Shown: in pieces, positions 1 to 16,742 of the stretch
How positions within the stretch are numbered: the stretch's first letter is position 1
Layout of the letters: each line of letters begins with the position of its first letter
Assembly (NCBI RefSeq): GCF_900215355.1
Contig: NZ_OBEA01000002.1
Coordinates: 62,001 to 126,000, forward strand
Length of the DNA stretch: 64,000 nt
Origin: Pseudooceanicola antarcticus
GTDB taxonomy: Bacteria > Pseudomonadota > Alphaproteobacteria > Rhodobacterales > Rhodobacteraceae
Direction of reading: 5' to 3'
Made by a program: the position numbers and the translations under genes
The notes under the pieces: generated by a model
What the model was told of the DNA's origin: nothing
The model's database searches: none
The model's input: only the letters and a program-made list of their open reading frames with translations

Positions 1-861
1 CTCGAGCCCAAGGACCGCGACATCTCGATGGTGTTCCAGAGCTACGGGCTCTATCCGAACATGTCGGTCTACGACAACATCCGCTTCCCGCTGCGCATCC
101 GCAAGGTGCCGGCCTCCGAGCACAAGGCCCGCGTCATGCGCGCCGCCGAGATGGTCGAGCTGACGCAGTTCCTGGATCGCCGCCCCGCCGCCCTGTCCGG
201 TGGTCAGCGCCAGCGGGTGGCGCTGGCCCGCGCCATCGTGCGAGAGCCCAATGCCTTCCTGATGGACGAGCCGCTGTCGAACCTCGACGCCAAGCTGCGG
301 GTCTCGACCCGCGCCCAGATCGCCAACCTGCACCACGAGCTGCAGACCACCACGGTCTATGTCACCCACGACCAGGTCGAGGCGATGACGCTGGCCGACC
401 GCGTGGTGGTGATGAAGAACGGCGTGGCCCAGCAGATCGCCCCGCCGATGGAGATCTACAACAAGCCCGCCAATACCTTCGTCGCCAGCTTCATCGGCGC
501 CCCGGCCATGAACCTGATCGAGGGCGAGCTGAACGATGGCACCTTCAGCTCTCCGGTGCTGAAGGTCAGCGGTCTGCCGCATCGCCACTCGGGGCCCGTG
601 ACGCTTGGCTTCCGGGCCGAGGACGTCGAGGTGGTCAGCGAGGGCGGCAACCTGGCCGCGCCGGTCTATTCGGTGGAACGTCTGGGTGACAGCACCATGT
701 TCGCCATCCGCGCCAAGGAGGACCTGATCTCTCTCAAGGCCGACAAGGCCGCCAGCCTCGAGATCGGCGAAACCGTCCGTGCAGAGGTCACCCCCGAGGT
801 CAGCCATATCTTCGACGGCGCGACAGGTCAGCGGATCGAACCCGTGCTGACGGCGGCGTAA
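1..861 (+). CDS. aglK: ABC sugar transporter ATP-binding protein (alpha-glucoside type), 5'-truncated by window edge
   Basis: ATPase subunit of a CUT1-type sugar importer; it would power uptake from the cytoplasmic face of the inner membrane. The reading frame is open from base 1, so the N-terminus with the Walker A motif lies outside the window; 286 residues remain. Visible are the Q-loop (MVFQSYGLYPNMSV), the signature LSGGQRQR, Walker B followed by the D-loop (FLMDEPLSNLD), the H-loop (YVTHDQVEAM) and a C-terminal TOBE-like region. The stop lies 12 bases before an alpha-glucosidase gene, so an alpha-glucoside (AglEFG) transporter is the likely partner. The substrate is inferred from this neighbour; a MalK/UgpC-like ATPase serving another sugar is possible. 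Confidence 0.85.
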   Translation, partial: LEPKDRDISMVFQSYGLYPNMSVYDNIRFPLRIRKVPASEHKARVMRAAEMVELTQFLDRRPAALSGGQRQRVALARAIVREPNAFLMDEPLSNLDAKLRVSTRAQIANLHHELQTTTVYVTHDQVEAMTLADRVVVMKNGVAQQIAPPMEIYNKPANTFVASFIGAPAMNLIEGELNDGTFSSPVLKVSGLPHRHSGPVTLGFRAEDVEVVSEGGNLAAPVYSVERLGDSTMFAIRAKEDLISLKADKAASLEIGETVRAEVTPEVSHIFDGATGQRIEPVLTAA

Positions 862-873
862 CGGATCAGGGCA

Positions 874-2577
874 ATGACAGAAGCAACCAACTCCACCGCG
901 CCGGCGCGGATCAACGGCATGCGCAAGATCTGGTGGAAAGAGGCCGTGGCCTATCAGATCTACCCGCGCAGCTTCATGGACAGCGATGGCGATGGCGTCG
1001 GCGATCTGCGCGGCATCATCGGCAAGCTCGACTACCTGGCCGAGCTGGGCGTCGACCTGATCTGGCTCTCGCCGCATTACGACAGCCCCAATGCCGACAA
1101 CGGCTACGACATCCGCGACTACCGCAAGGTGTCAGAGCAGTTCGGCAGCATGGAGGATTTCGACGCCCTGCTGGAAGGTCTGCACGCGCGTGGCATCCGG
1201 CTGATCGTCGACCTGGTGGTCAACCACTCCAGCGACGAGCACGCCTGGTTCGCCGAGGCCCGTCAGGGCCGCGACAGCGCCACGCGCGACTACTACATCT
1301 GGCGCGATCCGGCGCCCGACGGCGGCGTGCCCAACAACTGGCCCAGCTTCTTCTCCGGTCCCGCTTGGACCTGGGACGAGGCCTCGGGGCAATACTACCT
1401 GCACCTCTTCGCGCAGAAGCAGCCGGATCTGAACTGGGACAACCCCGCCCTGCGCGGCGAGGTCTGGGACCTGATGCGCTTCTGGCTGGACAAGGGCGTG
1501 GATGGCTTCCGCATGGACGTGATCCCCTTCATCTCGAAGGACCCGACGCTGCCCGCGCTGCCCGAGGGCGTGAAGCCGCAGCGCCATTATGCCGAAGGCC
1601 CGAAGCTGCACGACTACCTGCGCGAGATGCGCCGCGAGGTGCTCTCGCACTACGATTGCGCCACGGTGGGCGAGGGCAATGGCCTCGACCAGGAGCAGAT
1701 GCGCCGCGTGGTCGATGAGCGCCGCGAAGAGCTGGACATGATCTTTCAGTTCGACGTGGTGGAATTCGACCGCGACGCGGCGGGCAATCCCCGCGACTGG
1801 ACCCTGCCCGAGTTCAAGGAGATCTTCGCCCGACAGGCCGCCAGCATGGACGGACACGGCTGGACCACGGTCTACCTGGCCAACCACGATTGCACCCGCC
1901 CCGTCAGCCGCTACGGCGACGACAGCCCCGAATGGCGCGCGGCCTCGACCAAGGTGCTGAACGCGCTCTTGCTGACCCAGAAGGGCACGCCCTTCCTCTA
2001 CCAGGGCGACGAGTTCGGCATGACGAACTTCCCCTTCACCGAAATCGGCCAGTTCGAGGATATCGCGGTGCGCAATGCCTGGGCCGCCGCTGAGGCCAAT
2101 GGCACTGCGGATGAGGCCGCCTTCCTCGCCCGTCTCAACCGCACCAGCCGCGACCACTCGCGCACGCCCATGCAATGGAACGCCGCGCCCCAGGGCGGTT
2201 TCACCACCGGCACCCCCTGGTTGGCGGTGAACCCCAACCACGCCACGATCAACGCCGAGGCCGCGCTGGCCGAGGTGGACGGCCCCTGGCAGTTCACCCG
2301 CGACCTGATCGCCCTGCGCAAGGCGCAGCCCGCGCTGGTCTATGGCGACTACGAGGATCTCGCGCCGGATCATGCCGCGATCTTCGCCTACAGCCGCGCC
2401 ATCGGCGGGGCAGGCATCGCCGTTGTGCTGAACTTCGGTGCCGAGGCGCAGGTTTTCGACCTGCCAGAGGCGCTCTCGGCACCGCAGGTGCTGCTGTCGT
2501 CCGGCGCGACGTTGCAGGGGCAAAGCGTCTCTCTGCCCGGCTGGACGGCGCTGATCTGCGCATGGGGGCAGGCATGA
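874..2577 (+). CDS. aglA: Alpha-glucosidase, glycoside hydrolase family 13
   Basis: Cytoplasmic exo-acting enzyme that would release glucose from imported alpha-glucosides such as maltose, sucrose or trehalose-like sugars. The 567-residue length is normal for GH13 oligo-alpha-glucosidases. Region motifs are in order: YPRSFMDSDGDGVGDL near the N-terminus, the nucleophile Asp215 in GFRMDVIPF, the acid/base Glu267 in VGEGNG, and the transition-state Asp339 in NHDCTRPVSRYG. The last motif is slightly unusual, because many relatives have Q-P-R after NHD. The gene lies 12 bases after the ABC ATPase and shares an ATGA overlap with the next MFS gene, so the three are probably one transcript. Confidence 0.92.
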   Translation: MTEATNSTAPARINGMRKIWWKEAVAYQIYPRSFMDSDGDGVGDLRGIIGKLDYLAELGVDLIWLSPHYDSPNADNGYDIRDYRKVSEQFGSMEDFDALLEGLHARGIRLIVDLVVNHSSDEHAWFAEARQGRDSATRDYYIWRDPAPDGGVPNNWPSFFSGPAWTWDEASGQYYLHLFAQKQPDLNWDNPALRGEVWDLMRFWLDKGVDGFRMDVIPFISKDPTLPALPEGVKPQRHYAEGPKLHDYLREMRREVLSHYDCATVGEGNGLDQEQMRRVVDERREELDMIFQFDVVEFDRDAAGNPRDWTLPEFKEIFARQAASMDGHGWTTVYLANHDCTRPVSRYGDDSPEWRAASTKVLNALLLTQKGTPFLYQGDEFGMTNFPFTEIGQFEDIAVRNAWAAAEANGTADEAAFLARLNRTSRDHSRTPMQWNAAPQGGFTTGTPWLAVNPNHATINAEAALAEVDGPWQFTRDLIALRKAQPALVYGDYEDLAPDHAAIFAYSRAIGGAGIAVVLNFGAEAQVFDLPEALSAPQVLLSSGATLQGQSVSLPGWTALICAWGQA

Positions 2578-3788
2578 CCTCTCGCCCTGATCCGATCCCT
2601 TCGAGCCGCCCCGAGGTCCATGACAATCACGGCGGCCTGATGCTGCTACTGTCGCTGGCCTGCGGCCTTCTGGCGGCGAATGTCTATTACGCCCAGCCTC
2701 TTGCGGGCACCATCGCGGCGGATCTGAACATGTCCGAGAGGGCGGCGGGTCTGGTCGTGACCCTGACCCAGATCGGCTATGGCGCCGGGCTGCTGCTGGT
2801 GGTGCCGCTGGCCGACCGGCTCGAGAACCGCCGCCTGATCCTGGGCCTCGTCGCGCTGGCGGGGCTGGCGCTTTGCCTTGCGGGGTTCACCGGCATGGCC
2901 GGGGTCTTCCTGGCGGCGAGCCTGGCCATCGGGCTTGGCTCTGTCTGCGTGCAGGTGCTGGTGCCCTATGCCACCCACATGGCCCCGGAAGAGCGGCGCG
3001 GCCGCACCGTGGGGACGGTGACCACCGGGCTGATGCTGGGCATCATGCTGGCGCGCCCTGTCTCGGGCTTCGTCGCGGGGGCCTTCGGCTGGCGGGCGAT
3101 GTTCTGGATCAGCGCTGCGCTGATGCTGGCGCTGATCCTGACGCTGGCGGCCCGGCTGCCCGCCCGCCGTCCGCCCCATGATCCGAACGCCGAGCCCATG
3201 CTGCCCGCCATGGCCCGCGCCCTGGCCTCGATGCCGCTGCTGCGCCAGCGCATCCTCTACCAGATGGCGCTCTTCTCGGGCTTTTCGCTGTTCTGGACCA
3301 CGGTACCGCTGTGGCTGTCGGGCCCCGGCTGGGGCTGGAGCCACGCGCAAATCGGCCTCTTCGCCCTCGCCGGTGCCATGAGCGCCATTGCCGCGCCGAT
3401 CGCCGGCCATCTTGCCGACCACGGGCATTCCCGCGCCGGCACCGCTGCCGCGCTGGCCTCGGGCGTGCTGGCCTTCGCCCTTGCCGGGATCGCGCCTGCG
3501 GGGACGGTGACAGGCGCCGTGACTCTGGTGGCCGCCGCGCTGCTGCTGGATCTGGGCGTGACGCTGAGCTTCGTCATCGGGCAGCGCACGATCTTCGGGC
3601 TGGCACCGGGCAACCGGGCACGGCTGAACGGGGTCTACATGGCCAGCTTCACGGCAGCGGGCGCCGTTGGCTCTGCTGCGGGAGCATGGATCTTTGCCAC
3701 CAAGGGCTGGGGCTTCGTCGCCCTGCTGGGCGCGGTGCTGATCCTGCTGGCGGGGCTGCGCTTCAGTCTTGCGAAAGAGCGCGCGTAG
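2574..3788 (+). CDS. MFS permease, 12-TM type, in the alpha-glucoside operon
   Basis: Inner-membrane secondary transporter of 404 residues with about 12 hydrophobic segments. The start was set at the ATG that overlaps the aglA stop (ATGA), although the frame stays open further upstream inside aglA. The first helix (LACGLLAANVYYAQPL) and the loop 2-3 motif (PLADRLENRRLI) fit the YgaY/AraJ-like drug or sugar efflux branch of the MFS. Translational coupling to aglA suggests a role with sugars, perhaps export of excess sugar or product, but no substrate can be read from the sequence. Its end overlaps the convergent LacI gene by 26 bases. Confidence 0.8.
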   Translation: MTSRPDPIPSSRPEVHDNHGGLMLLLSLACGLLAANVYYAQPLAGTIAADLNMSERAAGLVVTLTQIGYGAGLLLVVPLADRLENRRLILGLVALAGLALCLAGFTGMAGVFLAASLAIGLGSVCVQVLVPYATHMAPEERRGRTVGTVTTGLMLGIMLARPVSGFVAGAFGWRAMFWISAALMLALILTLAARLPARRPPHDPNAEPMLPAMARALASMPLLRQRILYQMALFSGFSLFWTTVPLWLSGPGWGWSHAQIGLFALAGAMSAIAAPIAGHLADHGHSRAGTAAALASGVLAFALAGIAPAGTVTGAVTLVAAALLLDLGVTLSFVIGQRTIFGLAPGNRARLNGVYMASFTAAGAVGSAAGAWIFATKGWGFVALLGAVLILLAGLRFSLAKERA

Positions 3789-4779
3789 AGCCGCGCCGCA
3801 CCAGTTCGACCGGCAACATGACCTGGCGCGGGCCCTCTTCCTTGCGGGCCAGCGCCGCCATCAGGGACGAGACCGCCTGCGCCACCATCGCCCTCCGGTC
3901 CTGGCGCAGGGTGGTCAGGTCGAAGCTGGGCCAGGCGGCGGCGGGCACGTCGTCGAAGCCCACCACGGCCACGTCATCAGGCACCGAAAGCCCGAACTCG
4001 TACCGGATCACGTCGAGTGCGGCGAAAGCCATGTGATCATCGGGCACGAAAAGCGCATCGGGCCGGTCGGGCCGGTCGAAGATCCGACGGGCGGCCTCGC
4101 GGGCGGTGTCGTAGTGATAATCCCCGGCCTCGGTCAGGGCGATCTCGGCGCCGGCCTCGGCCAGGGCCTCGGTGAAGCCGGAAACCCGGTCGCGGTCGGT
4201 CGAGGCGTTCTCGAAACCGCGCAGCAGGGCGATCCGCTTGGGCTGTGCTTCCAGCAGCACCTTGGCGGCCATCCAGCCGCCGGTGTGGTTGTCACTGGTC
4301 ACCGAACGCAGCCCGCTGCCGGGCTGGTCGCGGTTGAACAGCATCACCGGGATCGACAGGCCGACGCAGCGCTCGGCCAGCGTCGATGAGAGCGAGACAG
4401 AGACCAGCACCAGCGCATCGACCCGGTAGTCGAGGATGCGTTGCACCACGTCCTCGACATCGCCGACGGTGCGTTGCGCCATGAAGAGCAGCACGTGGTA
4501 GCCCTCGTCCTGGAGCGCAATGGACAGGCGCTCGACAAGATCGGGGTAAAGCTGGTTCTCGAAGTAATGCACCACCAGCCCGATGATCCGGCTCTTGCCG
4601 GTGATCAGCGAGCGGGCCAGTACGTTGGGACGGTAGCCCAGTTCCTCCGCGGCTTCGCGGATACGCTCGGCCATCTTCTTGGACACGGAGGCGCCCGGGG
4701 TGAAATACCGCGACACGGCGGATTGGCTGACGCCCGCCTTGCGCGCAACGTCAACGGAAGTCACCGGCTTGTCGGTCAT
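3763..4779 (-). CDS. LacI-family transcriptional regulator
   Basis: Repressor-type regulator of 338 residues: an N-terminal helix-turn-helix (TSVDVARKAGVSQSAVSRYF) with the hinge segment ELGYRPNVLARSL, then a periplasmic-binding-protein-like effector domain (IIGLVVHYFENQLYP, SDNHTGGWMAA, GFDDVPAAAWPSFDLTT). It follows the SnoaL-like gene on the same strand by 62 bases, so it is probably co-transcribed with it. Two matching 16-bp palindromes with central CG, typical of LacI-family operators, lie upstream of that gene and of the HisD-like gene, which makes this the likely regulator of that locus rather than of the convergent agl genes. The effector is unknown. Confidence 0.88.
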   Translation of the reverse strand: MTDKPVTSVDVARKAGVSQSAVSRYFTPGASVSKKMAERIREAAEELGYRPNVLARSLITGKSRIIGLVVHYFENQLYPDLVERLSIALQDEGYHVLLFMAQRTVGDVEDVVQRILDYRVDALVLVSVSLSSTLAERCVGLSIPVMLFNRDQPGSGLRSVTSDNHTGGWMAAKVLLEAQPKRIALLRGFENASTDRDRVSGFTEALAEAGAEIALTEAGDYHYDTAREAARRIFDRPDRPDALFVPDDHMAFAALDVIRYEFGLSVPDDVAVVGFDDVPAAAWPSFDLTTLRQDRRAMVAQAVSSLMAALARKEEGPRQVMLPVELVRRGSTRALSQD

Positions 4780-4806
4780 GCCCGGACGGGTCCTCTCTGG
4801 TCAGGT

Positions 4807-4834
4807 GCCCCCGCGCCGGGAAGGGCGCGGGGGC
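4807..4834 (-). terminator. GC-rich hairpin between the SnoaL-like gene and lacI-type gene
   Basis: Perfect 11-bp stem (GCCCCCGCGCC paired with GGCGCGGGGGC) with a 6-base loop, located just after the SnoaL-like stop codon. There is no T-run, so it may be a partial terminator or an mRNA stabiliser that lowers regulator expression relative to the upstream gene. Confidence 0.5.
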
Positions 4835-4841
4835 GGAAGGC

Positions 4842-6011
4842 TCAGCCCTCGATATCGGCCACGGCGGGCCGATCTGCAAGCTGTGCCAGTTTCACCTGTA
4901 CCAGCATGGAGAGTTCATCGTAGACCGTCCAGTCATCGACGATGCGGCCATCCTTGTAGTGGAAGTGGGACATGCCCATGACCTGGATGCGCTTGCCGGT
5001 CGGATCGCCGAGCGATTCCAGCCCGCCGAAGCCCAGGTGGTGGCCCTCCATCACCCAGCGGACGGCGACCTTGGTGCCGCCCTCGACGCAATCGACAGAG
5101 CAGACATGCTGCGGCATGAAGACCGCATCCGGGATGGCGCCGACGAGGCCGATCATCTGGTGGCTGACGGCGGTGACGCCATAGAGCTCTTTCATCAGGG
5201 GGCCGTGGTACATGACGGTCGGCGCATAGACATCGCGCAGCACGCCGAACATCTTGCGGTTATAGGCCGCATGCAGCCATTCCAGCGTCTTCCGCTCGAG
5301 GTCGGTCTCGGCGATGGAGGTATCCAGCGGCAGCTCGGAGGGCGGGTACTGACCCATCATCAGGCCGTTTTCGCCGATATCGAGGCTGGTCAGCCCCTGC
5401 GACAGCTTGGTTGCGGCGATCTTCTCGGCGAAGGCATGGGGGTCGAGACCCAGCTGACGGATGATCGCCATCTGATCAGCGACGACCCATTCGCGGTAGA
5501 TCTTGTTCTCGAAGACCATGCAGTCCGCCACGGTGCGCGAGACGAAGGGACGCCCCGTCGCCGGGCCATAGTGCCCGTTCTGGCTGTGACGGCCCGAGCC
5601 TGTCACCAGGTGCGAGGTATAGAAACCGTCGACGTCATTGCCCTTCCAGACCACCTGGGTGGCCATGCCGCGGCGCTCGGGCAGCGAGACCAGGCGCTGG
5701 ATCGTGTCGCGCACCACGTCTTCGCGGTTATACATGGTGCCCATGGTGCCATAGAGGACGCAGTTATGAGTGTAGTGCGTGTAGATCAGGCCCACGTCGC
5801 GCTCGTCCCAGATCTTGTGGGTGCAGCGGATGATGTAATCCACGATGTCCGTGTAGCAGTCGTCGAAACCCTTCATGGACTGGGCGCGGGGACGGTCCTC
5901 GGGCACCAGGTCGGTGAAGTCGAGCCGCTCGCACTGCAGGACCTCGGGGGCCGCCTGCTTGGCGGGCTTGGGGGCAGCGGGGGCTGCGGATTTCTCGGGT
6001 GTCGTCGCCAT
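4842..6011 (-). CDS. Double NTF2/SnoaL-like domain protein
   Basis: Protein of 389 residues that appears to contain two NTF2-like (SnoaL-like) alpha+beta cone domains in tandem: roughly residues 50-190 (FDDCYTDIVDYIIRCTHKIW onward) and 225-375 (LEWLHAAYNRKMFGVLRDVY onward). The family includes small-molecule isomerases, hydrolases and binding proteins. The start was placed at the ATG preceded by AGGAG six bases upstream; a GTG seven codons earlier lacks such a site. The first 35 residues are Ala/Pro/Lys-rich and look disordered. It is divergent from the small gene and amidase, with a LacI-type palindrome between them. The reaction cannot be assigned. Confidence 0.8.
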   Translation of the reverse strand: MATTPEKSAAPAAPKPAKQAAPEVLQCERLDFTDLVPEDRPRAQSMKGFDDCYTDIVDYIIRCTHKIWDERDVGLIYTHYTHNCVLYGTMGTMYNREDVVRDTIQRLVSLPERRGMATQVVWKGNDVDGFYTSHLVTGSGRHSQNGHYGPATGRPFVSRTVADCMVFENKIYREWVVADQMAIIRQLGLDPHAFAEKIAATKLSQGLTSLDIGENGLMMGQYPPSELPLDTSIAETDLERKTLEWLHAAYNRKMFGVLRDVYAPTVMYHGPLMKELYGVTAVSHQMIGLVGAIPDAVFMPQHVCSVDCVEGGTKVAVRWVMEGHHLGFGGLESLGDPTGKRIQVMGMSHFHYKDGRIVDDWTVYDELSMLVQVKLAQLADRPAVADIEG

Positions 6012-6093
6012 GTCGGTCTCCTGTTGTGTCACGGCCTGCGGCCCGGTTCAGAGGTCTCGGGCGCTTGCCTCTTGCCAAGTCTTGTGCCGCATG

Positions 6094-6109
6094 TTGAATA
6101 CGTATGCAA
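6094..6109. promoter_or_regulatory. Putative LacI-family operator 1
   Basis: TTGAATACGTATGCAA, a palindrome with one mismatched pair and a central CG. It sits between the divergent SnoaL-like gene and the AtzG-like/amidase pair, about 83 bases from the former start and 54 from the latter. It matches the site at 9045-9060 in 14 of 16 positions. Confidence 0.65.
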
Positions 6110-6162
6110 TACGAGTTTTCGGGGAAGCCCCCGAGGACGAGAGATGAAACGGAGGGCAGCCC

Positions 6163-6324
6163 ATGGCTGATGAAAAGCTGAGCCTTGAGGATCTGCTGGT
6201 GCGGCTGGAAGAGAAGGGCGTGACGCTGGCGGAGGATGAGCAGGCGGCCGCCCTTGCTGCGGCGCGGGACCTGCGGCGGCGCGCGGCTCTCCTTGCGCAG
6301 CAGAGAGGGCAGGCCGATGACTGA
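6163..6324 (+). CDS. Small AtzG/DUF4089-like protein, 53 aa
   Basis: Short helical, charged protein (MADEKLSLEDLLVRLEEKG at its N-terminus, then an Ala/Leu/Arg-rich helix). It overlaps the amidase start by 8 bases. Small GatC/AtzG-like partners (DUF4089) are typically encoded immediately upstream of AtzE-type amidases and stabilise them, so this is the likely role. The assignment rests on size, helical pattern and overlap, not on a strong motif. It is somewhat shorter than known AtzG proteins. A purine-rich stretch (GGAGGG) lies 6-11 bases upstream of the ATG. Confidence 0.6.
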   Translation: MADEKLSLEDLLVRLEEKGVTLAEDEQAAALAAARDLRRRAALLAQQRGQADD

Positions 6325-7663
6325 CTGGATCGACCGATCGCTGAGCGCCCAGGCCGAAGCGCTGAGGGCGGGACAGGTGAGCGCTGTCGCGCTGATGGAG
6401 GCTACGCTGGCGCGAATCGATGCGCGCAGCGCGCTGGACGCGGTGACCTGGATCGCCCCGGACGCGCTTGAGCAGGCCGCCGCCGCGGATCGCGCCCTGG
6501 CCGAGGGCCAGGAGACCGGCCCGCTGCACGGGCTGCCCGTGGCGCTTAAGGACCTCTTCGAGGCGGAGGGGCAGCCGAACACCTGCGGCTCCCGCTCGAT
6601 GCCAGAGGGGGGGATGCCTGCCGACAGCGCCCCGGTCGCGGCCCTGCGCCGAGCCGGTGCTCTGCCGGTGCTGCGGGTGGCCACCTACGAGTTCGCCCTG
6701 ACCGGCCCGGCCTGGGATCAGCCCTATCCGCCCGCCCGCAATCCCTGGAACCCCCGGCATATCACCGGCGGTTCCTCCTCGGGCTCTGCTGCCGCTGTTG
6801 CCGGCGGGTTGGTGCGCGTGGCGCTTGGCACAGATACCGGCGGCTCGGTCCGCAGCCCCGCGTCCTACTGCGGGATCGTCGGCTTGAAACCGACGCGGGG
6901 CCGGGTGCCGGACAGCGGGGTATTCCCCCTTTCGGGCACGCTCGACACCGTCGGGCCGCTGGCGGCCAGTGTCGCGGAAGCGGCGCTGATTCTCGACGTG
7001 ATCTCGGGGGAGGGCATGGCTCCGGCCTCGGGCGAACTGGGGCAGGACCCCGCGGGCATGCGCATCGGCTTCGCCCGCGACTGGGTGCTGGACCCCGAAG
7101 CCGATCCGAGTCTGTTGCCGCTGCTGGACGATGCGGTCGGTGTGCTGTCGCGCCTTGGGTTGGGCGTCGATCTGATCGAGATGCCGGATTACGCCCTGGC
7201 CGAGGCGGCGGGCTGCGTCATCATCCAGCACGAGGCCTGGCAGATCCACGCCGCGCGGCTGGCCGAAAATGGCGCTGCCTACGGGCGCGATGCGCGGCTG
7301 AACCTCGTCACCGGCGCGGCCTTGGATCAGGCGGATGTGCAGGCGGCAGAGGCCCATGCGCGGGACCTCACCCGCGCCGTGGACCGCGCGCTTGAGGGAC
7401 GTGATGCCATCGTCTCCGCCACGACGCTGACCCCGGCTCCGGCCTTCTCGGATTTCGAGAATGGTGCGGTCTGGACCCCGATGCGCACCTTCCCCTTCAA
7501 CATCACCGGCCACCCGGCGATCTCACTGCCCTGCGGCCTGCTGGACGGGCTGCCCATTGGCCTGCAGATCATCGGTCGGCATGGAGAGGAGGCGCGGATC
7601 TGCCGGATCGCCGAGGCCTTCGAGCTGGCCACGGATCACTGCCTGCAACACCCGCCGCTCTGA
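6317..7663 (+). CDS. Amidase signature family hydrolase (AtzE/GatA-like)
   Basis: Cytoplasmic amidohydrolase of 448 residues using the Ser-cisSer-Lys triad. Lys78 lies in LPVALKDLFEAEG, the Gly/Ser box ITGGSSSGSAA spans residues 149-159, and the nucleophile is probably Ser177 in DTGGSVRSPASYCG. The start was chosen at the ATG inside the end of the small upstream gene, since the frame remains open upstream. The AtzG-like partner suggests an AtzE-type enzyme acting on a small carboxamide or urea-like compound rather than GatA of the tRNA amidotransferase, as no gatB or gatC is near. It is probably controlled by the LacI-type operator at 6094. Confidence 0.85.
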   Translation: MTDWIDRSLSAQAEALRAGQVSAVALMEATLARIDARSALDAVTWIAPDALEQAAAADRALAEGQETGPLHGLPVALKDLFEAEGQPNTCGSRSMPEGGMPADSAPVAALRRAGALPVLRVATYEFALTGPAWDQPYPPARNPWNPRHITGGSSSGSAAAVAGGLVRVALGTDTGGSVRSPASYCGIVGLKPTRGRVPDSGVFPLSGTLDTVGPLAASVAEAALILDVISGEGMAPASGELGQDPAGMRIGFARDWVLDPEADPSLLPLLDDAVGVLSRLGLGVDLIEMPDYALAEAAGCVIIQHEAWQIHAARLAENGAAYGRDARLNLVTGAALDQADVQAAEAHARDLTRAVDRALEGRDAIVSATTLTPAPAFSDFENGAVWTPMRTFPFNITGHPAISLPCGLLDGLPIGLQIIGRHGEEARICRIAEAFELATDHCLQHPPL

Positions 7664-7678
7664 TCCGCGAGGGGGCGG

Positions 7679-7718
7679 AAAAAAGCCCGGCCGCGATCGC
7701 TCGCGGCCGGGCTTTTTT
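7679..7718. terminator. Bidirectional intrinsic terminator
   Basis: Twelve-bp perfect stem (GCCCGGCCGCGA paired with TCGCGGCCGGGC) with loop TCGC, flanked by six A on the left and six T on the right. It can end both the amidase transcript and the convergent HisD-like transcript; its last base is the first base of the HisD-like stop codon. Confidence 0.9.
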
Positions 7719-9004
7719 CATGCCTGAAGGCGGTCGAGGCGCAGTTGCGCGGCGCGGCGGTGACCTTCCAGGCCCTCGCTCTTGGCCTGGCGCGCGGCGG
7801 GCGGAGCCACCTGCTTCACGCCTTCCGCATCCAGCCACTGGTGCGTGGCGGTCTTGATGTAGGCGCCGACCCAGAGCCCGCCGGTATAGCGGCCCGCCGC
7901 CATGGTCGGCAGCGTGTGGTTGGTGCCCGAGCACTTGTCGGAATAGACCACGCTGGACAGCTCTCCGATGAAGAGCGAGCCGTAGTGGCTGAGCTTCTTG
8001 GCGAAGTCGCGCGGCTCGGCGGTGTGGACCTGAAGGTGCTCGGCGGCGACCTCGTCGGAATAGGCGATCATCGCGGCCTCGTCGGCGACCAGGGCGATTT
8101 CGCCGTAGTCGTTCCAGGCGGGGCGGGCCACCTCGGCGGTCGAGAGCGTCTCGAGCTGCTTTTCCACCTCGGCCAGAACGGCCTCGGCCAGCGGGCGGTG
8201 CGTGGTGATCAGGCCGACGCGGGTGCGCACGTCGTGCTCGGCCTGGGCCAGCAGGTCGGTGGCGATCATCTCGGCGTCGCCGGTCTCATCGGCCAGCACG
8301 AAGATCTCGGAGGGGCCGGCCAGCTGGTCGATGCCCACGGGGCCGAAGACCTGGCGCTTGGCCTCGTTGACGAAGGCGTTGCCGGGGCCGACGATCTTGT
8401 CGACGCGGGGCACGCTCTCGGTGCCGAGAGCCATCGCGGCGATGGCCTGGGCGCCACCGATGCGGAAGATCCGGTCGGCACCCGAGAGGTGGCAGCCGGC
8501 GATCATCGCGCGATGCGCATTCGGCGGCAGGCAGGCCACGACCTCTTTCACGCCGGCGACCTTGGCGGGCACGATGGTCATGATCGGCGCCGACAGAAGC
8601 GGGAAGCGACCGCCGGGGACGTAGCAGCCGACGCGATCCAGCGGGATGTTGCGGTGACCAAGGTGGACGCCCGGCAGGATCTCGACCTCCAGCTCACCCA
8701 GGGTGCCCAGCTGGGCCTCGGCGAAGGCGCGCACGTTGGCGATGGCGAACTCGGTATCCGCGCGGGTCTGCGGGTCCAGCTCGGCCAGGGCCGCTTCGCG
8801 GTCCTCTGCGCTGACCTCGAAGACCTCGAGGTCGGACTTGTCGAAACGCTGCGCATAATCGCGCACGGCCGCATCGCCCTCGGTGCGCACACGGGCGATC
8901 ACCTCGGCCACGGTCTTTTCGACGGGGGCGTTGTCGGCCACGGCGTTGCGGCCCGGTGCCTTGATGAATTCGGGAGCTTGGGAGCTGGTTTTGCTGTTGG
9001 TCAT
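7718..9004 (-). CDS. Histidinol dehydrogenase-like NAD-dependent dehydrogenase (HisD paralogue)
   Basis: Protein of 428 residues with the complete HisD fold markers: [19 protein letters not shown], the NAD-site region [23 protein letters not shown], zinc ligands in LLAQAEHD, the catalytic Glu-His in AAEHLQVHT, and the C-terminal [13 protein letters not shown]. No histidine biosynthesis gene is near. HisD paralogues of this kind in Rhodobacterales oxidise other primary alcohols; HpsN, which acts on 2,3-dihydroxypropanesulfonate, is the best known. None of the other hps genes are here, so the substrate is open. A LacI-type palindrome lies 41 bases upstream, tying it to the SnoaL/amidase genes. 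Confidence 0.85.
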
Positions 9005-9044
9005 GGCCTCACATCCACTGTCTGATGCCCCGTCGATAGCAGTT

Positions 9045-9060
9045 TTGCATACGAATGCAA
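9045..9060. promoter_or_regulatory. Putative LacI-family operator 2
   Basis: TTGCATACGAATGCAA, a near-perfect palindrome with central CG, 41 bases upstream of the HisD-like start. It is nearly identical to the site at 6094-6109, giving a working consensus TTGMATACGWATGCAA. Confidence 0.65.
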
Positions 9061-9228
9061 TATCCCTGTTCGCCCAGCCGCCTTCTGGTGTCTCCGCTGC
9101 CTGTCGCGGCAGCAGGAAAGGCAGGGCGGGCGGGAAGATCCGGCGCGGGGCCGGGCAGAAAACTGGACAAGAGCGGCCCGGATGGGGATGATTCCCGTCA
9201 ACAGTTCCGGATTTTCCGAGATTGACCG

Positions 9229-9714
9229 ATGCTCATCAGACGTTCCTTCCTGCTGCTCATCCTACCTGTCTTCCTGGCGGCCTGCGCCACCGCGCCGGCG
9301 GAGTTTCAACCCGGCACCCAGTTGATCCTGGTGCGTCATGCGGATCGCTCGGGCGATCTGCTGAACCGGATCGGAGAGGCCCGCGCGGCGGCGCTGCCGG
9401 ACGCCTTGCAGGATTACGACATCGCGGCGATCTACCTGCCGGACGTCACTCGCAACCGGCAGACCGCGGCGCCGCTGGCAGCGAAACTGGGGCTCGAGCC
9501 GCAGGTCATCAACGCCGAAAACCCGACTTTCGAGCTGCTGCGCGCAGGCGCGGGACAGACCATTCTTTGGGTCGGAAACAAGGGAAATCTGGTCAGAATC
9601 TGGGAGACCCTGAACGCCCAGGGACCACCCCCGGTAGAATACGGTGACGTTGCCGTAGTCATGCTTTCGCCGGGCGGAAATCTTGTAGTGCACAGATTTG
9701 ATTGGGAAATTTGA
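9229..9714 (+). CDS. Histidine-phosphatase-fold lipoprotein, probably lacking the second catalytic His
   Basis: Secreted lipoprotein of 161 residues: a signal peptide ending in the lipobox LAAC (Cys19 or nearby) and then a short histidine phosphatase (phosphoglycerate-mutase-like) domain. The RHG-type motif is present as LILVRHADRSG, and the conserved Arg in VTRNRQTAAPL is there. Where family members normally have VGHSN, this protein has WVGNKGNL, so the second catalytic His appears to be Asn. It may be inactive or a binding protein. It appears to be transcribed alone. About 225 bases upstream hold the HisD-like operator and otherwise nothing recognisable. Confidence 0.75.
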   Translation: MLIRRSFLLLILPVFLAACATAPAEFQPGTQLILVRHADRSGDLLNRIGEARAAALPDALQDYDIAAIYLPDVTRNRQTAAPLAAKLGLEPQVINAENPTFELLRAGAGQTILWVGNKGNLVRIWETLNAQGPPPVEYGDVAVVMLSPGGNLVVHRFDWEI

Positions 9715-10329: not shown

Positions 10330-11553
10330 CTATTCCCTCGGTGCGCCGCCCTGGAAGGCATTGTCGACGTCGTAGCGGCAGGGGTCTTCCTGCATCTGCA
10401 GATGCAGCTGCCCGCCCTCGAAGGGATGGGCGCGGGCCAGAGCCTCGTCGACCTCGATCCCCAGCCCCGGCGCGTCCGAGAGCATCACATGGCCTTCCTC
10501 GACCCGGATCGCGCTCTTGATCAGGGCGTCGTGGAAGGGGGTCTCGATGGTCTCGGCCATCAGCAGGTTGGGGATGGTCGCCGCCAGCTGCAGGTTGGCA
10601 GCCCATTCCACCGGTCCGGCATAGAGATGCGGCGCGACCTGGGCGCCATGTCCCTGGGCAAGTGCCGCGATCTTGCGGGTCTCCCAGAGGCCGCCGGCGC
10701 GGCCCAGGGCAGGTTGCAGGATCGCCGCCCCGGCCTCCAGCGCGGCGCGGAACTCGGGCAGGGTGGTCAGGCGCTCTCCGGTGGCGACGGGCAGGCCCGA
10801 ATTGCGGCAGACCTCTGCCAGCCCCGTCAGATCATCCGGCGGCACGGGCTCCTCGAACCAGAGCGGATCGTAGGGGGTGATCGCACGGGCCATCCGCAGG
10901 GCACCGGCCGCGGTGAACTGCCCATGGGTGCCGAAGAGCAGATCCGCATGGGTTCCCACGGCCTCGCGTACCGCCGCGCAGGTGCGGGCCGAGAGCGACA
11001 GGTCCGAGAGCGCGGGCATGTGACCACCGCGAATCGTATAGGGCCCCGCCGGGTCGAACTTCACCGCGGTATAGCCTCGTGCCACCAGGTCGCGGGCGCT
11101 TTCGGCGGCCATCTCGGGGTTGCTCCAGAAGGCGGAAGCGTCGTGGTGGGGCAGGGGGTAGAGGTAGGAATAGCAGCGGATGCGCCTGTTCATCATCCCG
11201 CCGAGCAGCGCCCAGACGGGTCGCCCGCGCGCCTTGCCGAGGATGTCCCAGCAGGCGATCTCGAGACCGGAAAACGCGCCCATGACGGTCAGGTCCGGGC
11301 GCTGCGTGAAACCGGCGGAATAGGCGCGGCGGAACATCAGCTCGATGTTCTCGGGGCTCTCGCCCTGCATGTGGCGGGCGAAGACATCCTCGATCACCGC
11401 CCGCATCGCGCCTGGCCCGACCGAGGCGGCATAGACCTCGCCCCAGCCGGTGATGCCGCAGGCGGTCGTCAGCTTGACCAATATCCAGTAATGCCCGCCC
11501 CAGCCGGGTGCCGGCGGGGCGGTGACGATGATCTCTAGCTCGCTCAGTTTCAC
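10330..11553 (-). CDS. Enolase-superfamily (mandelate racemase / muconate lactonizing) enzyme
   Basis: Protein of 407 residues with the superfamily's N-terminal capping domain (residues 1-130) and a (beta/alpha)7-beta barrel. Motifs are the KFD box (YTAVKFDP), a GTHGQ strand where many relatives carry the first metal Asp, the metal Glu residues in WFEEPVPP and ATGERL, and a base-type His in APHLYAGP. Such enzymes dehydrate sugar acids or isomerise lactones. The Thr-His in place of Asp-x-His marks a subgroup whose substrate I cannot name. It lies 22 bases downstream of the alcohol dehydrogenase gene, so the pair may work on the same sugar-acid or polyol. Confidence 0.85.
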   Translation of the reverse strand: MKLSELEIIVTAPPAPGWGGHYWILVKLTTACGITGWGEVYAASVGPGAMRAVIEDVFARHMQGESPENIELMFRRAYSAGFTQRPDLTVMGAFSGLEIACWDILGKARGRPVWALLGGMMNRRIRCYSYLYPLPHHDASAFWSNPEMAAESARDLVARGYTAVKFDPAGPYTIRGGHMPALSDLSLSARTCAAVREAVGTHADLLFGTHGQFTAAGALRMARAITPYDPLWFEEPVPPDDLTGLAEVCRNSGLPVATGERLTTLPEFRAALEAGAAILQPALGRAGGLWETRKIAALAQGHGAQVAPHLYAGPVEWAANLQLAATIPNLLMAETIETPFHDALIKSAIRVEEGHVMLSDAPGLGIEVDEALARAHPFEGGQLHLQMQEDPCRYDVDNAFQGGAPRE

Positions 11554-11575
11554 AGGGTGGCGGCCCCCCTCGGGC

Positions 11576-12661
11576 CTATTTCAGCATGATCACGTTGCGC
11601 CGGGCGCGGCCCTCCAGCGTATCGGCGATTGCCTCGTTGATCTGTTCAAGCTGCCAGCGCCCCGAGATCAGCTCGTCCAGCTTCAGGCGGCCCTGGCGAT
11701 ACATGTCGATCATCCAGGGGATGTCGCGCTTGATCACCACGTTGCCCATCTTCGAGCCGACGATGCCCTGGCCTGCATCCGCCATGATCAGCGGCGAATA
11801 GCTGGAGGTCTTGTCGCCATGCGGCATCCCCACCATGACGACCCTGCCGCCACGCGCAAGGTAGCGCGGTGCCATGTCGTAGACCGGAGCCACGCCGACG
11901 GTGACCAGCACTGCGTCTGCCCCGCGGCCGAGGATCTTCTTCACGGCGCTCCAGGGTTTGCCCTCGGCGCTGACCACGTCGGTGGCGCCGAACTCCTTCG
12001 CCGCTTCCAGTTTCTCGTCCACCAGGTCGACGGCGACGATGCGCCGGGCGCCGGCAATGCGCGCGCCCTGGATGGCGTTGAGGCCGACGCCGCCGGCGCC
12101 GATCACCACCACGTCGTCCCCGGCGCGGATCTCGCTGGCGTAGACGGCGGCGCCGACCCCGGTGATCACCCCGCAGGAGATCAGCGAGGCCGCATCCATC
12201 GGCATGTCATCGGGGATCGTCACCACCTGGCTCTGGTCCACCACCATCTTCTCGGCAAAGGCGCCCGAGGCCATGGCCTGCATCACCGGCGTGCCGTCGG
12301 GCAGGCTGAGAGGGCTCTGGCCGATGGGATCATGGGGGGTCTCGCAGATCGTCGGTTGGCCCGAGCCGCAACAGTCGCAATGGCCGCAGGCGCGGATCAG
12401 GGTGACGCAGACCGCATCGCCGACCTTCACCCCCTGGACGCCCACGCCGATGGCGGTGACGCGGCCCGCAGCCTCGTGGCCGAAGACCGCCGGCGCAGCG
12501 CCGCCGAAACCGCCCTGCCAGAAAGAGATATCCGAATGGCAGATCGCCACCGCTTCCAGCTCTACCTCGACCTCGCCCATCTCCGGCGCGCGCAGCCGCA
12601 CCTCCTCGATGGTCATCGGTGCGTTGAATTCCCGGCAAACCGCCGCCTTGATCGTCTGCAT
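11576..12661 (-). CDS. Zinc-dependent alcohol dehydrogenase (MDR family)
   Basis: Medium-chain dehydrogenase of 361 residues. Catalytic zinc ligands are Cys in AICHSDISFW and His-Glu in FGHEAAGRV. The structural zinc lobe has four Cys in CGHCDCCGSGQPTIC, and the dinucleotide fold has GAGGVGLNA. It resembles the class III/AdhC branch of zinc alcohol dehydrogenases, oxidising or reducing an alcohol with NAD(P). The start ATG follows a GGGGAG ribosome site. It is separated by 22 bases from the downstream enolase-superfamily gene and by 78 bases from the upstream MFS gene, all on the minus strand. Confidence 0.88.
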   Translation of the reverse strand: MQTIKAAVCREFNAPMTIEEVRLRAPEMGEVEVELEAVAICHSDISFWQGGFGGAAPAVFGHEAAGRVTAIGVGVQGVKVGDAVCVTLIRACGHCDCCGSGQPTICETPHDPIGQSPLSLPDGTPVMQAMASGAFAEKMVVDQSQVVTIPDDMPMDAASLISCGVITGVGAAVYASEIRAGDDVVVIGAGGVGLNAIQGARIAGARRIVAVDLVDEKLEAAKEFGATDVVSAEGKPWSAVKKILGRGADAVLVTVGVAPVYDMAPRYLARGGRVVMVGMPHGDKTSSYSPLIMADAGQGIVGSKMGNVVIKRDIPWMIDMYRQGRLKLDELISGRWQLEQINEAIADTLEGRARRNVIMLK

Positions 12662-14084: not shown

Positions 14085-15413
14085 TCAGATTGCTGCCACG
14101 GCGGCGGCGAAGGCGCGGGCATTGGCGGGGGCATCGCCCATTTGCTCTTCCGGCGTGAACAGGCCCGAGAGGTCGAGATCGGGCAGCGCTTCGGCGGCCA
14201 GCTCTCCCAGCGGGCGGCCGGTGGCCAGCACCTGCTGGGCCAGCTCCTTGACCTTGGCCTGGGCCTCGGGGCGGGGCATCTGGCCGGCCAGCCGGAACGA
14301 CAGTGCCTCGGCGTGCAGCAGGCCCAGGGCCTCGGTGAAGACGGCGCGCATTTCGGGGGCCTTGGGGCTGAGGCCGGGCGCCATGGCGCGGGCCGTTTCC
14401 AGCGCGGCGGAGGCCGAGAGGCAGAGCTGCGGAAAGACCAGCCATTCGGTGAACCAGGCGGCGCCGTCGCGTTCCTGGCGCGGCATGCCCGCGCCGTCCA
14501 TGACGGCTTTCAGCCCCATCACCTGCCGCGCCAGCGCCAGCAGGGCCGAGGGCTGCACGGGGTTCTGTTTCTGCGGCATGGTGGAAGAGCCGCCCGAGGC
14601 CGACAATTTGACCTCGGAGGCAGAGCTTTGCGCCATCAGGATCAGGTCGTCGCCCATCTTGCCCAGCACCTGCGCCATGCGCGCCAGCCATCCGGCGATG
14701 CGCAGCACCGGGCCACGGTCGGCATGCCAGGAGCGGCCTGGATCCCCCAGGCCCAGCCCCTTGGCCAGCGCGGCGCGCAGCTCGGCGCCCTTGCCGGCGA
14801 ATTCCGCGCCGGTGCCGGCGGCACCCGACAGCGAGACCCAGAGAGAGCCTTCGCGCAGCGCGGGCAGCTCTTTCAGCAGATCCAGCAGCGGCCAGCCCCA
14901 GGCGGCCACGTGGCTGCCGAAGCTGACGGGGGTGGCGAACTGGCCGTAGGTGCGGCCCGCCATCGGCAGCTCTGCGTGATCGGAGGCCTGGGTTGCCAGC
15001 GCCGCCAGCAGCTCTTTTAGCCCATCCTCGCAGAGCGCCAGAAGCTGGCGCAGGCGCAGCATCTGGCCGGTGTCCGCGATGTCCTGCGAGGTCGCGCCCC
15101 AGTGGACGTATTGCGCGTGCTCCGGCGCCTCCATGGCCTTGCGGAAACCGGCCACAAGTGAGGGCACCGGCACCCCGTTCTTGCCCACGCCCTCGGCCAG
15201 CCCCCCGGGATCCAGTGGGATCTCGAGCGAGGCCCGGTGGATGAAGGCGGCCGAGACCTCGGGGATCATGCCAAGCTGCCCCTGCGCCTTGGCCAGCGCC
15301 CCCTCGACGATCAGCATCGAGCGCACCTCGGCGCTGTCGGTGAAGAGCCGCCCGGCCTCGCCCGCGTTGAAAAGCTTCGAGTAGATCAGGCTGTCATGCA
15401 CGGAACCGGCCAT
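14085..15413 (-). CDS. pcaB: 3-carboxy-cis,cis-muconate cycloisomerase
   Basis: Cytoplasmic enzyme converting 3-carboxy-cis,cis-muconate into 4-carboxymuconolactone in the protocatechuate branch of the beta-ketoadipate pathway. The 442 residues belong to the fumarase/aspartase superfamily, with the signature GGSSTMPQKQNPVQ and the upstream HWGATSQDIADT box. Its start overlaps the stop of the upstream hydrolase gene (TGATG). It is the last pca gene of the operon, as in other alphaproteobacterial pcaDCHGB clusters. Confidence 0.95.
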   Translation of the reverse strand: MAGSVHDSLIYSKLFNAGEAGRLFTDSAEVRSMLIVEGALAKAQGQLGMIPEVSAAFIHRASLEIPLDPGGLAEGVGKNGVPVPSLVAGFRKAMEAPEHAQYVHWGATSQDIADTGQMLRLRQLLALCEDGLKELLAALATQASDHAELPMAGRTYGQFATPVSFGSHVAAWGWPLLDLLKELPALREGSLWVSLSGAAGTGAEFAGKGAELRAALAKGLGLGDPGRSWHADRGPVLRIAGWLARMAQVLGKMGDDLILMAQSSASEVKLSASGGSSTMPQKQNPVQPSALLALARQVMGLKAVMDGAGMPRQERDGAAWFTEWLVFPQLCLSASAALETARAMAPGLSPKAPEMRAVFTEALGLLHAEALSFRLAGQMPRPEAQAKVKELAQQVLATGRPLGELAAEALPDLDLSGLFTPEEQMGDAPANARAFAAAVAAI

Positions 15414-16126
15414 CAGATGTCCTCCGCGATGCGCGAAAGCAGGGCGGCGAGGCCCTCGGGGTCTTCGAGGAAGGGGGAATGTCCGGTGGGCATGTCGTAT
15501 CTGTCCTTCGGGTCACAGCGTTGCGCCATCTCGGTCTGGGCGTCCGGCGAGATGGTCAGGTCCTTGGTGCAGCGGATATAGGATCGCGGCACCCGGCGCC
15601 AGTTCTCGCCCAGGGCAATCGGCTGGGTATGGGGCCGCATGGGCTCCGCGACGAGACGCGCGCGGGCCTCGGCGCGCAGACCGCCGGGCAGGCCGTGGTA
15701 GAAGCGGCTATCGTCGGCGGCCTCGTCGACCTCGTAGCCTGCGCGGTCGGCGGTCTGCCGGGCGATGCCCTTCAGTGGCGGTTCGGGCCAGGCATTGGCC
15801 ATGTCGACAAGCGAGCGCCCGTCCTCGGGCAGGAAGGCGCAGAGGTAGACCAGCCGCTGCACCCGCCAGGGTGCCAGCTCGGCCGCGCGGGAGATCGGGA
15901 AGCCGCCCGCGGAATGACCGACCAGCACCGAGGGTTGCTCGGCGTGGTCGAGGACCGTGTGGGCGTAGTCCTCGAGCGTCAGGTCTGAATGGGGGCGGGG
16001 GTCGCCACCGTGACCGGGCAGGTCGGGGGCCGTAACGAGATGTCCCCGAGCCAGAAGCTCGGGGATCACCAGGTGCCAGCACCAGCCTGTGTGGCAGGCG
16101 CCGTGGATCAACACGAAACGGGCCAT
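15413..16126 (-). CDS. Alpha/beta hydrolase of plant methylesterase type inserted in the pca operon
   Basis: Protein of 237 residues. The N-terminal FVLIHGACHTGWCWH and DLPGHG, the nucleophile elbow GHSAGG and the catalytic His in TGHSPFLEDPE resemble the plant methyl-salicylate esterase / hydroxynitrile lyase group. It lies 13 bases after pcaG and overlaps pcaB, so it is made together with the protocatechuate enzymes. It is not PcaD, which is encoded separately at 17844. A plausible role is hydrolysis of methyl or other simple esters of 4-hydroxybenzoate or protocatechuate before ring cleavage. This is inference from family and location. Confidence 0.8.
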   Translation of the reverse strand: MARFVLIHGACHTGWCWHLVIPELLARGHLVTAPDLPGHGGDPRPHSDLTLEDYAHTVLDHAEQPSVLVGHSAGGFPISRAAELAPWRVQRLVYLCAFLPEDGRSLVDMANAWPEPPLKGIARQTADRAGYEVDEAADDSRFYHGLPGGLRAEARARLVAEPMRPHTQPIALGENWRRVPRSYIRCTKDLTISPDAQTEMAQRCDPKDRYDMPTGHSPFLEDPEGLAALLSRIAEDI

Positions 16127-16139
16127 CAGGAGAAGGCCA

Positions 16140-16739
16140 TCAGATGTCCAGGAACACCGTCTCGCCTTCGCCCTGCAGGCGGATGTCGAAGGTGTACTTG
16201 CCCTCGGCGGTCTTCTTGGCGATCAGCGTGTCCACGCGGGGGCGCTGTTCGATCCGGTTCAGCAGCGGGTCTGCGGAGTTGTCCTCATCCTCGAAGTAGA
16301 TGCGGGTCTGCAGGCCAATGTTGATGCCGCGCGCCACGATCCAGACCGAGATATGCGGCGCCTGGACCATGCCGCCCCGGCCCTTGGTCGCGCCGGGCTT
16401 GACGGTGCGCAGGGTGAAGAAGCCGGTTTCCTTGTCCGCGGTGAAGCGGCAGAAGCCCGAGACCTTGGGGTCCGCGCCGTCGGTGCCGGGGTAGATCCCG
16501 GCGGCATCGGCCTGCCAGCTTTCCATCATCGCGTCACGCATCGCCCAGCCGGTGCCGTCGAAGACCTGGCCGGTGATCTCGATGATCTCGCCCTTGGCGC
16601 CATCTTCGATGGGCGAAAGGGCCAGGTCCTCGGGGTAGATGCCTTCCAGACCGGCGAAGGTCGGGACACAGCCGATGTGGACGTAGGGGCCAGCGGTCTG
16701 CGACGGGGTTTCCTGCAGCGTATCGAGTTGCTGTGCCAT
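16140..16739 (-). CDS. pcaG: Protocatechuate 3,4-dioxygenase alpha subunit
   Basis: Non-iron-binding subunit of the intradiol ring-cleavage dioxygenase that converts protocatechuate to 3-carboxy-cis,cis-muconate. The 199 residues carry the family start (ETPSQTAGPYVHIG), the beta-sandwich core (DAMMESWQADAAGIYPG) and APHISVWIVARGINIGL. Three bases separate its start from the pcaH stop. It pairs with PcaH to form the oligomeric enzyme. Confidence 0.96.
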   Translation of the reverse strand: MAQQLDTLQETPSQTAGPYVHIGCVPTFAGLEGIYPEDLALSPIEDGAKGEIIEITGQVFDGTGWAMRDAMMESWQADAAGIYPGTDGADPKVSGFCRFTADKETGFFTLRTVKPGATKGRGGMVQAPHISVWIVARGINIGLQTRIYFEDEDNSADPLLNRIEQRPRVDTLIAKKTAEGKYTFDIRLQGEGETVFLDI

Positions 16740-16742
16740 GAG

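Follow-up and report, generated by a model that had tools for sequence, protein, structure and literature searches.

What joins a LacI-family regulator, a protein with two SnoaL-type folds, an amidase and a dehydrogenase resembling histidinol dehydrogenase (HisD) in one short region of the Pseudooceanicola antarcticus genome? We analysed a 64-kb stretch of contig C8 of this 4.23-Mb genome (G000), referred to as the window, in which two 16-bp palindromes lie among these genes. The region is likely to hold the uptake genes and the upper catabolic genes of a conserved LacI regulon which, judging from its gene content, seems to import and break down a sugar-like compound.

Results

Predicted operators in the source genome

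Both palindromes named in a first-pass annotation of the window, TTGAATACGTATGCAA (operator 1) and TTGCATACGAATGCAA (operator 2), are found where it had placed them (Table 1). With up to three mismatches, these are the only two places in the window that match (4 strand matches; shuffled motifs gave a mean of 0.30 and at most 2). Operator 1 is located 82 bp from the start codon of SnoaL (first base 6011, minus strand) and 53 bp before a small open reading frame (ORF) that precedes the amidase gene. A third operator, ATGCATACGTATGCAT, is present at C8:58258, 3.7 kb before the window and 71 bp before the gene of a solute-binding protein (SBP). Beyond the two window sites, it is the only genome-wide match with up to two mismatches apart from one degenerate site near a contig end, which adjoins a gene resembling a transposase by eye. 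Like palindromes are located before the ATP-binding cassette (ABC) transporter, α-glucosidase and major facilitator superfamily (MFS) genes, in the divergent gap between SnoaL and the small ORF and amidase, and before the HisD-like gene (HisD1). The regulator gene adjoins SnoaL.

The first-pass annotation had stated that no transporter gene was included. This has to be corrected: the genes of an orthologous sugar-type ABC transporter, preceded by an operator of their own, begin just upstream and extend into the window. We assign the transporter to the cluster because its SBP (L006:8345-9586) and permeases, encoded on L006 (the source-genome stretch including the upstream flank), are 74-85% identical to those of a Pseudoroseicyclus cluster (L012) and about 57-81% identical to the ABC genes of other clusters. 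A second LacI-family gene (L006:7156-8175, plus strand) with the helix SQSTVSR lies beside the third operator. The ABC genes are directly followed by a GH13 α-glucosidase gene, kept in L012 (72%) and in the relative G042 (83%). G042 also keeps HisD1 (91%), the amidase (73%), SnoaL (93%), LacI (85%) and the MFS transporter (81%), as well as all three operators, the third as ATGCATACGTATGCAC.

Like other members of its family, the window LacI combines a helix-turn-helix with a periplasmic-binding-like ligand domain (Pfam). Its recognition helix is AGVSQSAVSR. The protein is 65-70% identical to the regulators in 9 of the 10 clusters L009-L018 and 54% identical to the L016 regulator.

Conservation of the operator with the cluster genes

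A scan of bacterial genomes with the SnoaL protein yielded 107 relatives, and the best 80 were taken as loci (1.57 Mb in total), so that SnoaL is present in 80/80 by construction. With up to one mismatch, the motif TTGCATACGTATGCAA occurs at 92 sites in 60 loci, and with up to two at 169 sites in 78 loci. The reversed motif gave 0 sites at both thresholds. Up to 20 shuffled palindromes gave a mean of 0.05 sites (largest 1) at the stricter threshold and 1.3 (largest 18, in 16 loci) at the looser one. Nearly all sites (167/169, against 19% expected by area) adjoin a cluster gene, lying no more than 400 bp upstream of it or 60 bp inside it, and at least two sites serving different genes are present in 45/80 loci. 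The AGVSQSAVSR helix is found in 69/72 of the LacI-cluster proteins. The idea of one shared operator with a LacI regulator in the cluster is supported. As in LacI regulons, the predicted operators are CG-centred palindromes that lie near the putatively regulated genes and are conserved together with the regulator.

Operators also precede cluster genes in Novosphingobium (TTGCATTCGAATGCAA), Deinococcus (ATGAATACGTATGCAA) and Priestia (TTGAATACGTATTCAA). Related clusters with similar operators were also seen in Enterobacterales, besides those of Deinococcus and Priestia. Judged by the like sites in the Novosphingobium, Deinococcus and Priestia clusters, the spread of the operator exceeds recent descent.

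Independently of the genes, we searched 149 genomes of the family (own included) for exact sites, with the reversed motif as control. Such sites are present in 12/149 genomes, and the control gave 0/149. In 9 of the 11 other exact-site genomes a cluster gene (HisD1, SnoaL/amidase, cupin, SBP or HisD2, a second HisD-like gene) lies within 1.5 kb. In G078, the exact site accompanies another apparent double-SnoaL protein beside an ABC ATPase (by eye). A SnoaL homologue is found in 11/12 exact-site genomes vs 62/149 overall (p = 0.0003), and a close orthologue (at least 68% identity) in 6/149, own included. The exception, G065, contains HisD2, a short-chain dehydrogenase/reductase (SDR), LacI and a MetE-like gene.

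A wider exact search of 289 genomes of the class found TTGCATACGWATGCAA in G000 and two others (G311 and G409), with a control count of 0. In both others the site precedes a gene that reads, by eye, like a methyl-accepting chemotaxis protein. In G311, this apparent chemoreceptor gene under the same operator (L159, 5472-7545) heads a row of genes for an SBP, permeases, an ATPase and an NTF2-like protein (last two by eye), followed by HisD2, SDR, LacI, SnoaL, cupin, hydrolase and an RraA-like aldolase. A second operator is located before the SBP gene.

The conserved gene set

Besides SnoaL, tblastn of the stretches examined detected LacI in 72/80 loci, HisD1 in 68/80, HisD2 in 63/80, SDR in 60/80, an α/β-hydrolase and a bicupin in 53/80 each, and the amidase in 46/80 (9 of the 46 distant only). 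Less frequent are the ABC binding protein (29/80), RraA-like (27/80) and HpcH/HpaI-like (25/80) aldolases, MFS (24/80) and MetE-like (12/80) proteins. The glucosidase was found in a single locus, L012, a 59-bit local match in L048 being set aside. SnoaL, HisD1 and LacI occur together in 65/80 loci, and with the amidase in 45/80 (42/65 of the loci of at least 20 kb). The linkage that the first-pass annotation had asked to be checked in related genomes is seen in those 45 loci. Its four-gene set is linked as proposed, and is merely the upper part of a larger one with HisD2, SDR, cupin, hydrolase and aldolase.

Hydrolase and SnoaL are fused in one reading frame of 638-720 aa in 20/80 loci (L025, L030, L031, L033, L035, L037-L041, L043, L045-L051, L055 and L056), which suggests that they catalyse consecutive steps.

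By record title, the hosts include Rhodobacterales, Devosia and other Hyphomicrobiales, and Enterobacterales. Matches were also present in 53 plasmid records, 11 of which were opened. Eight of these 11 clusters carry the gene set, some with more and some with fewer of its members: Sinorhizobium medicae, Alloyangia, Novosphingobium, Roseibium, two Deinococcus, Priestia (cigar leaf) and Ruegeria THAF33. In the Priestia cluster, LacI, SDR, cupin, hydrolase, aldolase, SnoaL and HisD are accompanied by an amidase and two MFS genes. A carbon-nitrogen hydrolase comes after HisD in each of the two Deinococcus records. The cluster of the Ruegeria sp. THAF33 plasmid (L097) is a variant with a SAM (S-adenosylmethionine) methyltransferase, a MetE-like protein and an amidohydrolase-family gene. 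This variant perhaps hints at a methyl group in the substrate.

Identities of the cluster proteins

The gene identities given by the first-pass annotation were right by Pfam, which finds LacI, SnoaL in two stretches, an amidase signature and a histidinol-dehydrogenase fold. The source genome contains two hisD-family genes. A biosynthetic HisD function of HisD1 was rejected, as the hisD on contig C16 scores higher (530 vs 453 bits). HisD1 is 41% identical to this HisD and 63-82% identical to HisD1 of other clusters, with 81-82% for three alphaproteobacterial loci. It shares the fold, the metal ligands and the catalytic Glu-His with HisD and with HpsN, the dehydrogenase of (R)-2,3-dihydroxypropane-1-sulfonate (DHPS), at 41-45% identity to one or the other. 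In the alignment, Gln/His, Asp and His, which we take to be the metal ligands, and Glu-His, presumably catalytic, are kept. Compared with solved HpsN/DHPS dehydrogenases (42-45% identity), the C-terminal stretch of HisD1 differs. HisD2 is 46-48% identical to two solved DHPS dehydrogenases, which are 54% identical to each other. HisD1 and HisD2 have GTNHTLPT...GGLWVG in common, with GGLWVG in place of the GGLSVH of both solved enzymes.

The window amidase is 45-61% identical to proteins in alphaproteobacterial loci. Assignment as an AtzE-type amidase was rejected (239 bits vs a cut-off of 425.75 for TIGR02715; 250 vs 461 for NF006631). The preceding 53-aa ORF had been called AtzG-like. Its position before the amidase fits this name, which found no support in sequence comparisons: no AtzG/GatC match was obtained in Pfam or PDB, either alone or as a 15-member alignment, for which 14 of 37 loci were used and 8 ORFs were left out as doubtful or near-duplicate. 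A like ORF precedes the amidase in at least 14/37 loci with a close amidase, and 15/37 gave none. In L090 and L093, a 'hypothetical protein' is annotated at this position.

The double SnoaL protein has the SnoaL/NTF2 fold, and Pfam assigns SnoaL, not DUF3225. Its folds match the polyketide cyclases AclR, SnoaL2 and IdmH. While the SnoaL/AknH/IdmH cyclases share this fold, the window protein differs in having two domains per chain and catabolic neighbours. Membership of the SnoaL polyketide methyl ester cyclase subfamily was rejected (19.9 bits vs a cut-off of 200, NF033407). The bicupin of the fuller clusters gives fold matches to quercetinase and gentisate/salicylate dioxygenase; identity to the bicupins quercetin 2,3-dioxygenase, gentisate 1,2-dioxygenase and oxalate decarboxylase is 9-17%. 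The α/β-hydrolase is PcaD-like.

Table 1 Features of the cluster in the window and its upstream flank (window positions unless a contig is given).
Feature	Position	Strand	Remarks
SBP-permease-permease-ATPase set	G000:C8:58345-62861		Window ATPase is its last ABC gene
ABC transporter ATPase, 3' part	1..861	+	Start upstream of window; best NCBIfam match UgpC, below cut-off
GH13 α-glucosidase, oligo-1,6-glucosidase / sucrose isomerase type	874..2577	+	Best PDB match sucrose isomerase, 625 bits
MFS transporter	2574..3788	+	PF07690; overlaps glucosidase stop; 81% kept in G042
LacI-family regulator	3763..4779	-	PF00356 (47 bits) and PF13377 (91 bits)
Double NTF2/SnoaL-fold protein, 389 aa	4842..6011	-	Relatives annotated 'ester cyclase'
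Operator 1 (predicted), TTGAATACGTATGCAA	6094..6109	none	Between SnoaL and small ORF/amidase; same site in G042
Small ORF, 53 aa	6163..6324	+	8-bp overlap with amidase start; position as AtzG/GatC-type partner
Amidase-signature hydrolase	6317..7663	+	PF01425, 302 bits
Bidirectional terminator-like hairpin	7679..7718	none	A6-GCCCGGCCGCGA...TCGCGGCCGGGC-T6, read from sequence; between convergent amidase and HisD1
HisD1, HisD-like dehydrogenase	7718..9004	-	PF00815
Operator 2 (predicted), TTGCATACGAATGCAA	9045..9060	none	40 bp before HisD1

Further genes are found beyond operator 2. A small protein with a partial histidine-phosphatase match and a signal-like start is encoded at 9229-9714 (plus strand), divergent from HisD1. 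An enolase-superfamily MR/MLE gene adjoins a zinc alcohol dehydrogenase gene at 10330-12661 (minus strand), without an operator; the pair is possibly a separate sugar-acid route. As an outside finding, an apparent protocatechuate 3,4-dioxygenase cluster occupies 14085-17471 (minus strand), with two Dioxygenase_C subunits, a fumarase-type lyase and an α/β-hydrolase.

Discussion

Proposed mechanism

In the absence of the compound, a LacI dimer would occupy the operators and repress the genes; the compound or an early product would release it. The sugar-type transporter would then import a hydroxylated, sugar-like compound, in the source genome perhaps as an α-glucoside cleaved by the GH13 enzyme. 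HisD and HpsN both use NAD+ to oxidise a primary alcohol to the carboxylate, and HisD1 is expected to catalyse the same reaction. Any amide group present in the compound would be removed by the amidase, while an acid-base step such as isomerisation, hydration or an aldol-type opening might be performed by the double NTF2-fold protein. Where a genome has the full set, the product could pass to HisD2, the SDR, the quercetinase-like bicupin, the PcaD-like hydrolase and an aldolase resembling HpaI or RraA/LigK, giving pyruvate and a small aldehyde or keto acid as putative end products. An amide, which the first-pass annotation had taken as the substrate, is doubtful as an obligatory one: the amidase was not seen in 34/80 loci (15/80 being shorter than 20 kb), and 9 of its 46 occurrences are distant only.

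Several observations weigh against the proposed regulon. The 80 loci share kinship and were selected through SnoaL, so the counts are not independent and formal p-values mean little; the gene labels come from tblastn of stretches that are shorter than 20 kb in 15/80 loci and at least 20 kb in 65/80. The amidase is not a constant member. The plasmid clusters of Phaeobacter piscinae, P. inhibens and Vibrio pelagius (3/11) contain SnoaL with all or part of the ABC transporter, and HisD, SDR and cupin were not found near SnoaL in these three. No site with up to three mismatches is present in the P. inhibens and Vibrio clusters, and P. piscinae has one with three. Among the exact-site genomes, a gap of 1.2 kb separates the G086 operator from the closest cluster gene, and G065 gave no SnoaL match despite its operator. 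In G099, the exact site (L107, G099:C3:250190) precedes an apparent TAXI-type gene of a tripartite ATP-independent periplasmic (TRAP) transporter away from the cluster. This gene is perhaps a further uptake route; the cluster of G099, elsewhere in the genome, carries two near-matches to the operator. In the source genome HisD2 is absent, and one cupin query gave no match in a search without a positive control. In the cupin of the fuller clusters, HxHxxxE is kept and the second cupin motif is without its His. Scanning for promoters gave no sigma-70-like match at any of the three operators; the lone match, at 9164-9192, is away from operator 2. Finally, from its location, the second LacI protein may regulate the third operator instead.

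Alternative explanations

Could the region be an ordinary α-glucoside (AglR-like) regulon for sucrose-type glucosides, with SnoaL, amidase and HisD1 as passengers? The GH13 enzyme resembles sucrose isomerase and oligo-1,6-glucosidase, its gene directly follows the ABC genes in an arrangement kept in L012 and G042, and a second LacI gene lies beside the ABC operator. We nevertheless regard this as improbable, given that just 1 of the 29 loci with a binding protein has the glucosidase and that operators precede HisD1, SnoaL, HisD2 and cupin genes where it is absent. The α-glucosidase is not the constant member that an AglR-type regulon would have, being present in 1/80 loci, the window and G042. 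Catabolism of hydroxy-sulfonates of the DHPS type, a substrate class raised by the first-pass annotation, would make the HisD-like enzymes HpsN relatives that produce sulfolactate. Among solved relatives, DHPS dehydrogenases indeed score highest against HisD1 and HisD2 (340 and 398 bits), and the Roseibium cluster contains a TRAP transporter. The identities of HisD1 (42-45%) and HisD2 (46-48%) to these enzymes, with 41% between HisD1 and the genome's own HisD, do not favour such a substrate, and GGLWVG replaces GGLSVH. To our knowledge, the DHPS pathway has no place for a cupin, SnoaL, PcaD-like hydrolase or aldolase. Judged by the dehydrogenase sequences and these neighbouring genes, the explanation appears very unlikely.

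The matches of the SnoaL folds to AclR, SnoaL2 and IdmH, of the bicupin to quercetinase and gentisate/salicylate dioxygenase, and of the hydrolase to PcaD would also suit genes that detoxify or degrade not a nutrient but a cyclic secondary metabolite, such as a polyketide, a flavonoid or a herbicide-like compound. The combination of sugar-type uptake, LacI control and an aldolase, with an apparent chemoreceptor in the same row, argues for a nutrient, and we consider this explanation unlikely. That the palindromes arose by chance between unrelated genes has nothing in its favour beyond their general frequency. It is refuted by the shuffle, reversed-motif and position counts and has a negligible probability.

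A candidate substrate

One specific form of the LacI regulon, a route for mycosporine-type sunscreen compounds, is a long shot that fits by functional groups alone. Mycosporines are aminocyclohexenones; mycosporine-glutaminol and the glucoside derived from it are examples. Release of the aglycone would fall to the glucosidase, and oxidation of the amino-alcohol side chain to HisD1, glutaminol being similar to histidinol. The carboxamide would be cleaved by the amidase, and the CH2OH group on the ring oxidised by HisD2. In some clusters a MetE-like protein might accept the O-methyl group; cupin, SnoaL and the PcaD-like hydrolase could open the ring before a LigK/HpaI-like aldolase cleaves at the tertiary alcohol. 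The hosts, which are marine roseobacters, leaf and rhizosphere bacteria and Deinococcus, fit mycosporines loosely. Against this assignment, few of the clusters have the glucosidase, and not all have the amidase.

Relation to known systems

Local catabolic regulons of LacI-family proteins are a known kind (RegPrecise, Ravcheev et al. 2014, PMC4052901). They share with the present system a CG-centred palindrome, a repressor gene in the cluster, a sugar-type ABC transporter and several enzymes; 'amidase' and 'histidinol' do not occur in the main text of that paper. The system described here also differs in that its operator spans three phyla. AtzG-AtzE-AtzH of cyanurate catabolism (PMC6219798), where AtzH, a DUF3225 protein, may be a decarboxylating amidohydrolase, sets a precedent for combining an NTF2-fold protein with an amidase and a small partner. 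Both clusters combine a small ORF, an amidase-signature enzyme and an NTF2-fold protein; the window has a double SnoaL protein in place of the DUF3225 AtzH, and its small ORF is without an AtzG match. Among the matches listed from the openly licensed PubMed Central literature, there was no description of the cluster. The architecture is ordinary for a LacI regulon; the gene combination and its taxonomic reach are not.

An operator kept across Pseudomonadota, Deinococcota and Bacillota, together with a dedicated transporter and an apparent chemoreceptor seen in one genome, implies that the compound is common in the environment. The operator makes members of the regulon easier to find, and the solute-binding proteins, HisD1/HisD2 and the amidase are direct biochemical handles on the compound. 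Its identification would give functions to genes for which 'ester cyclase', 'histidinol dehydrogenase', 'cupin' or 'RraA family' is now the sole annotation.

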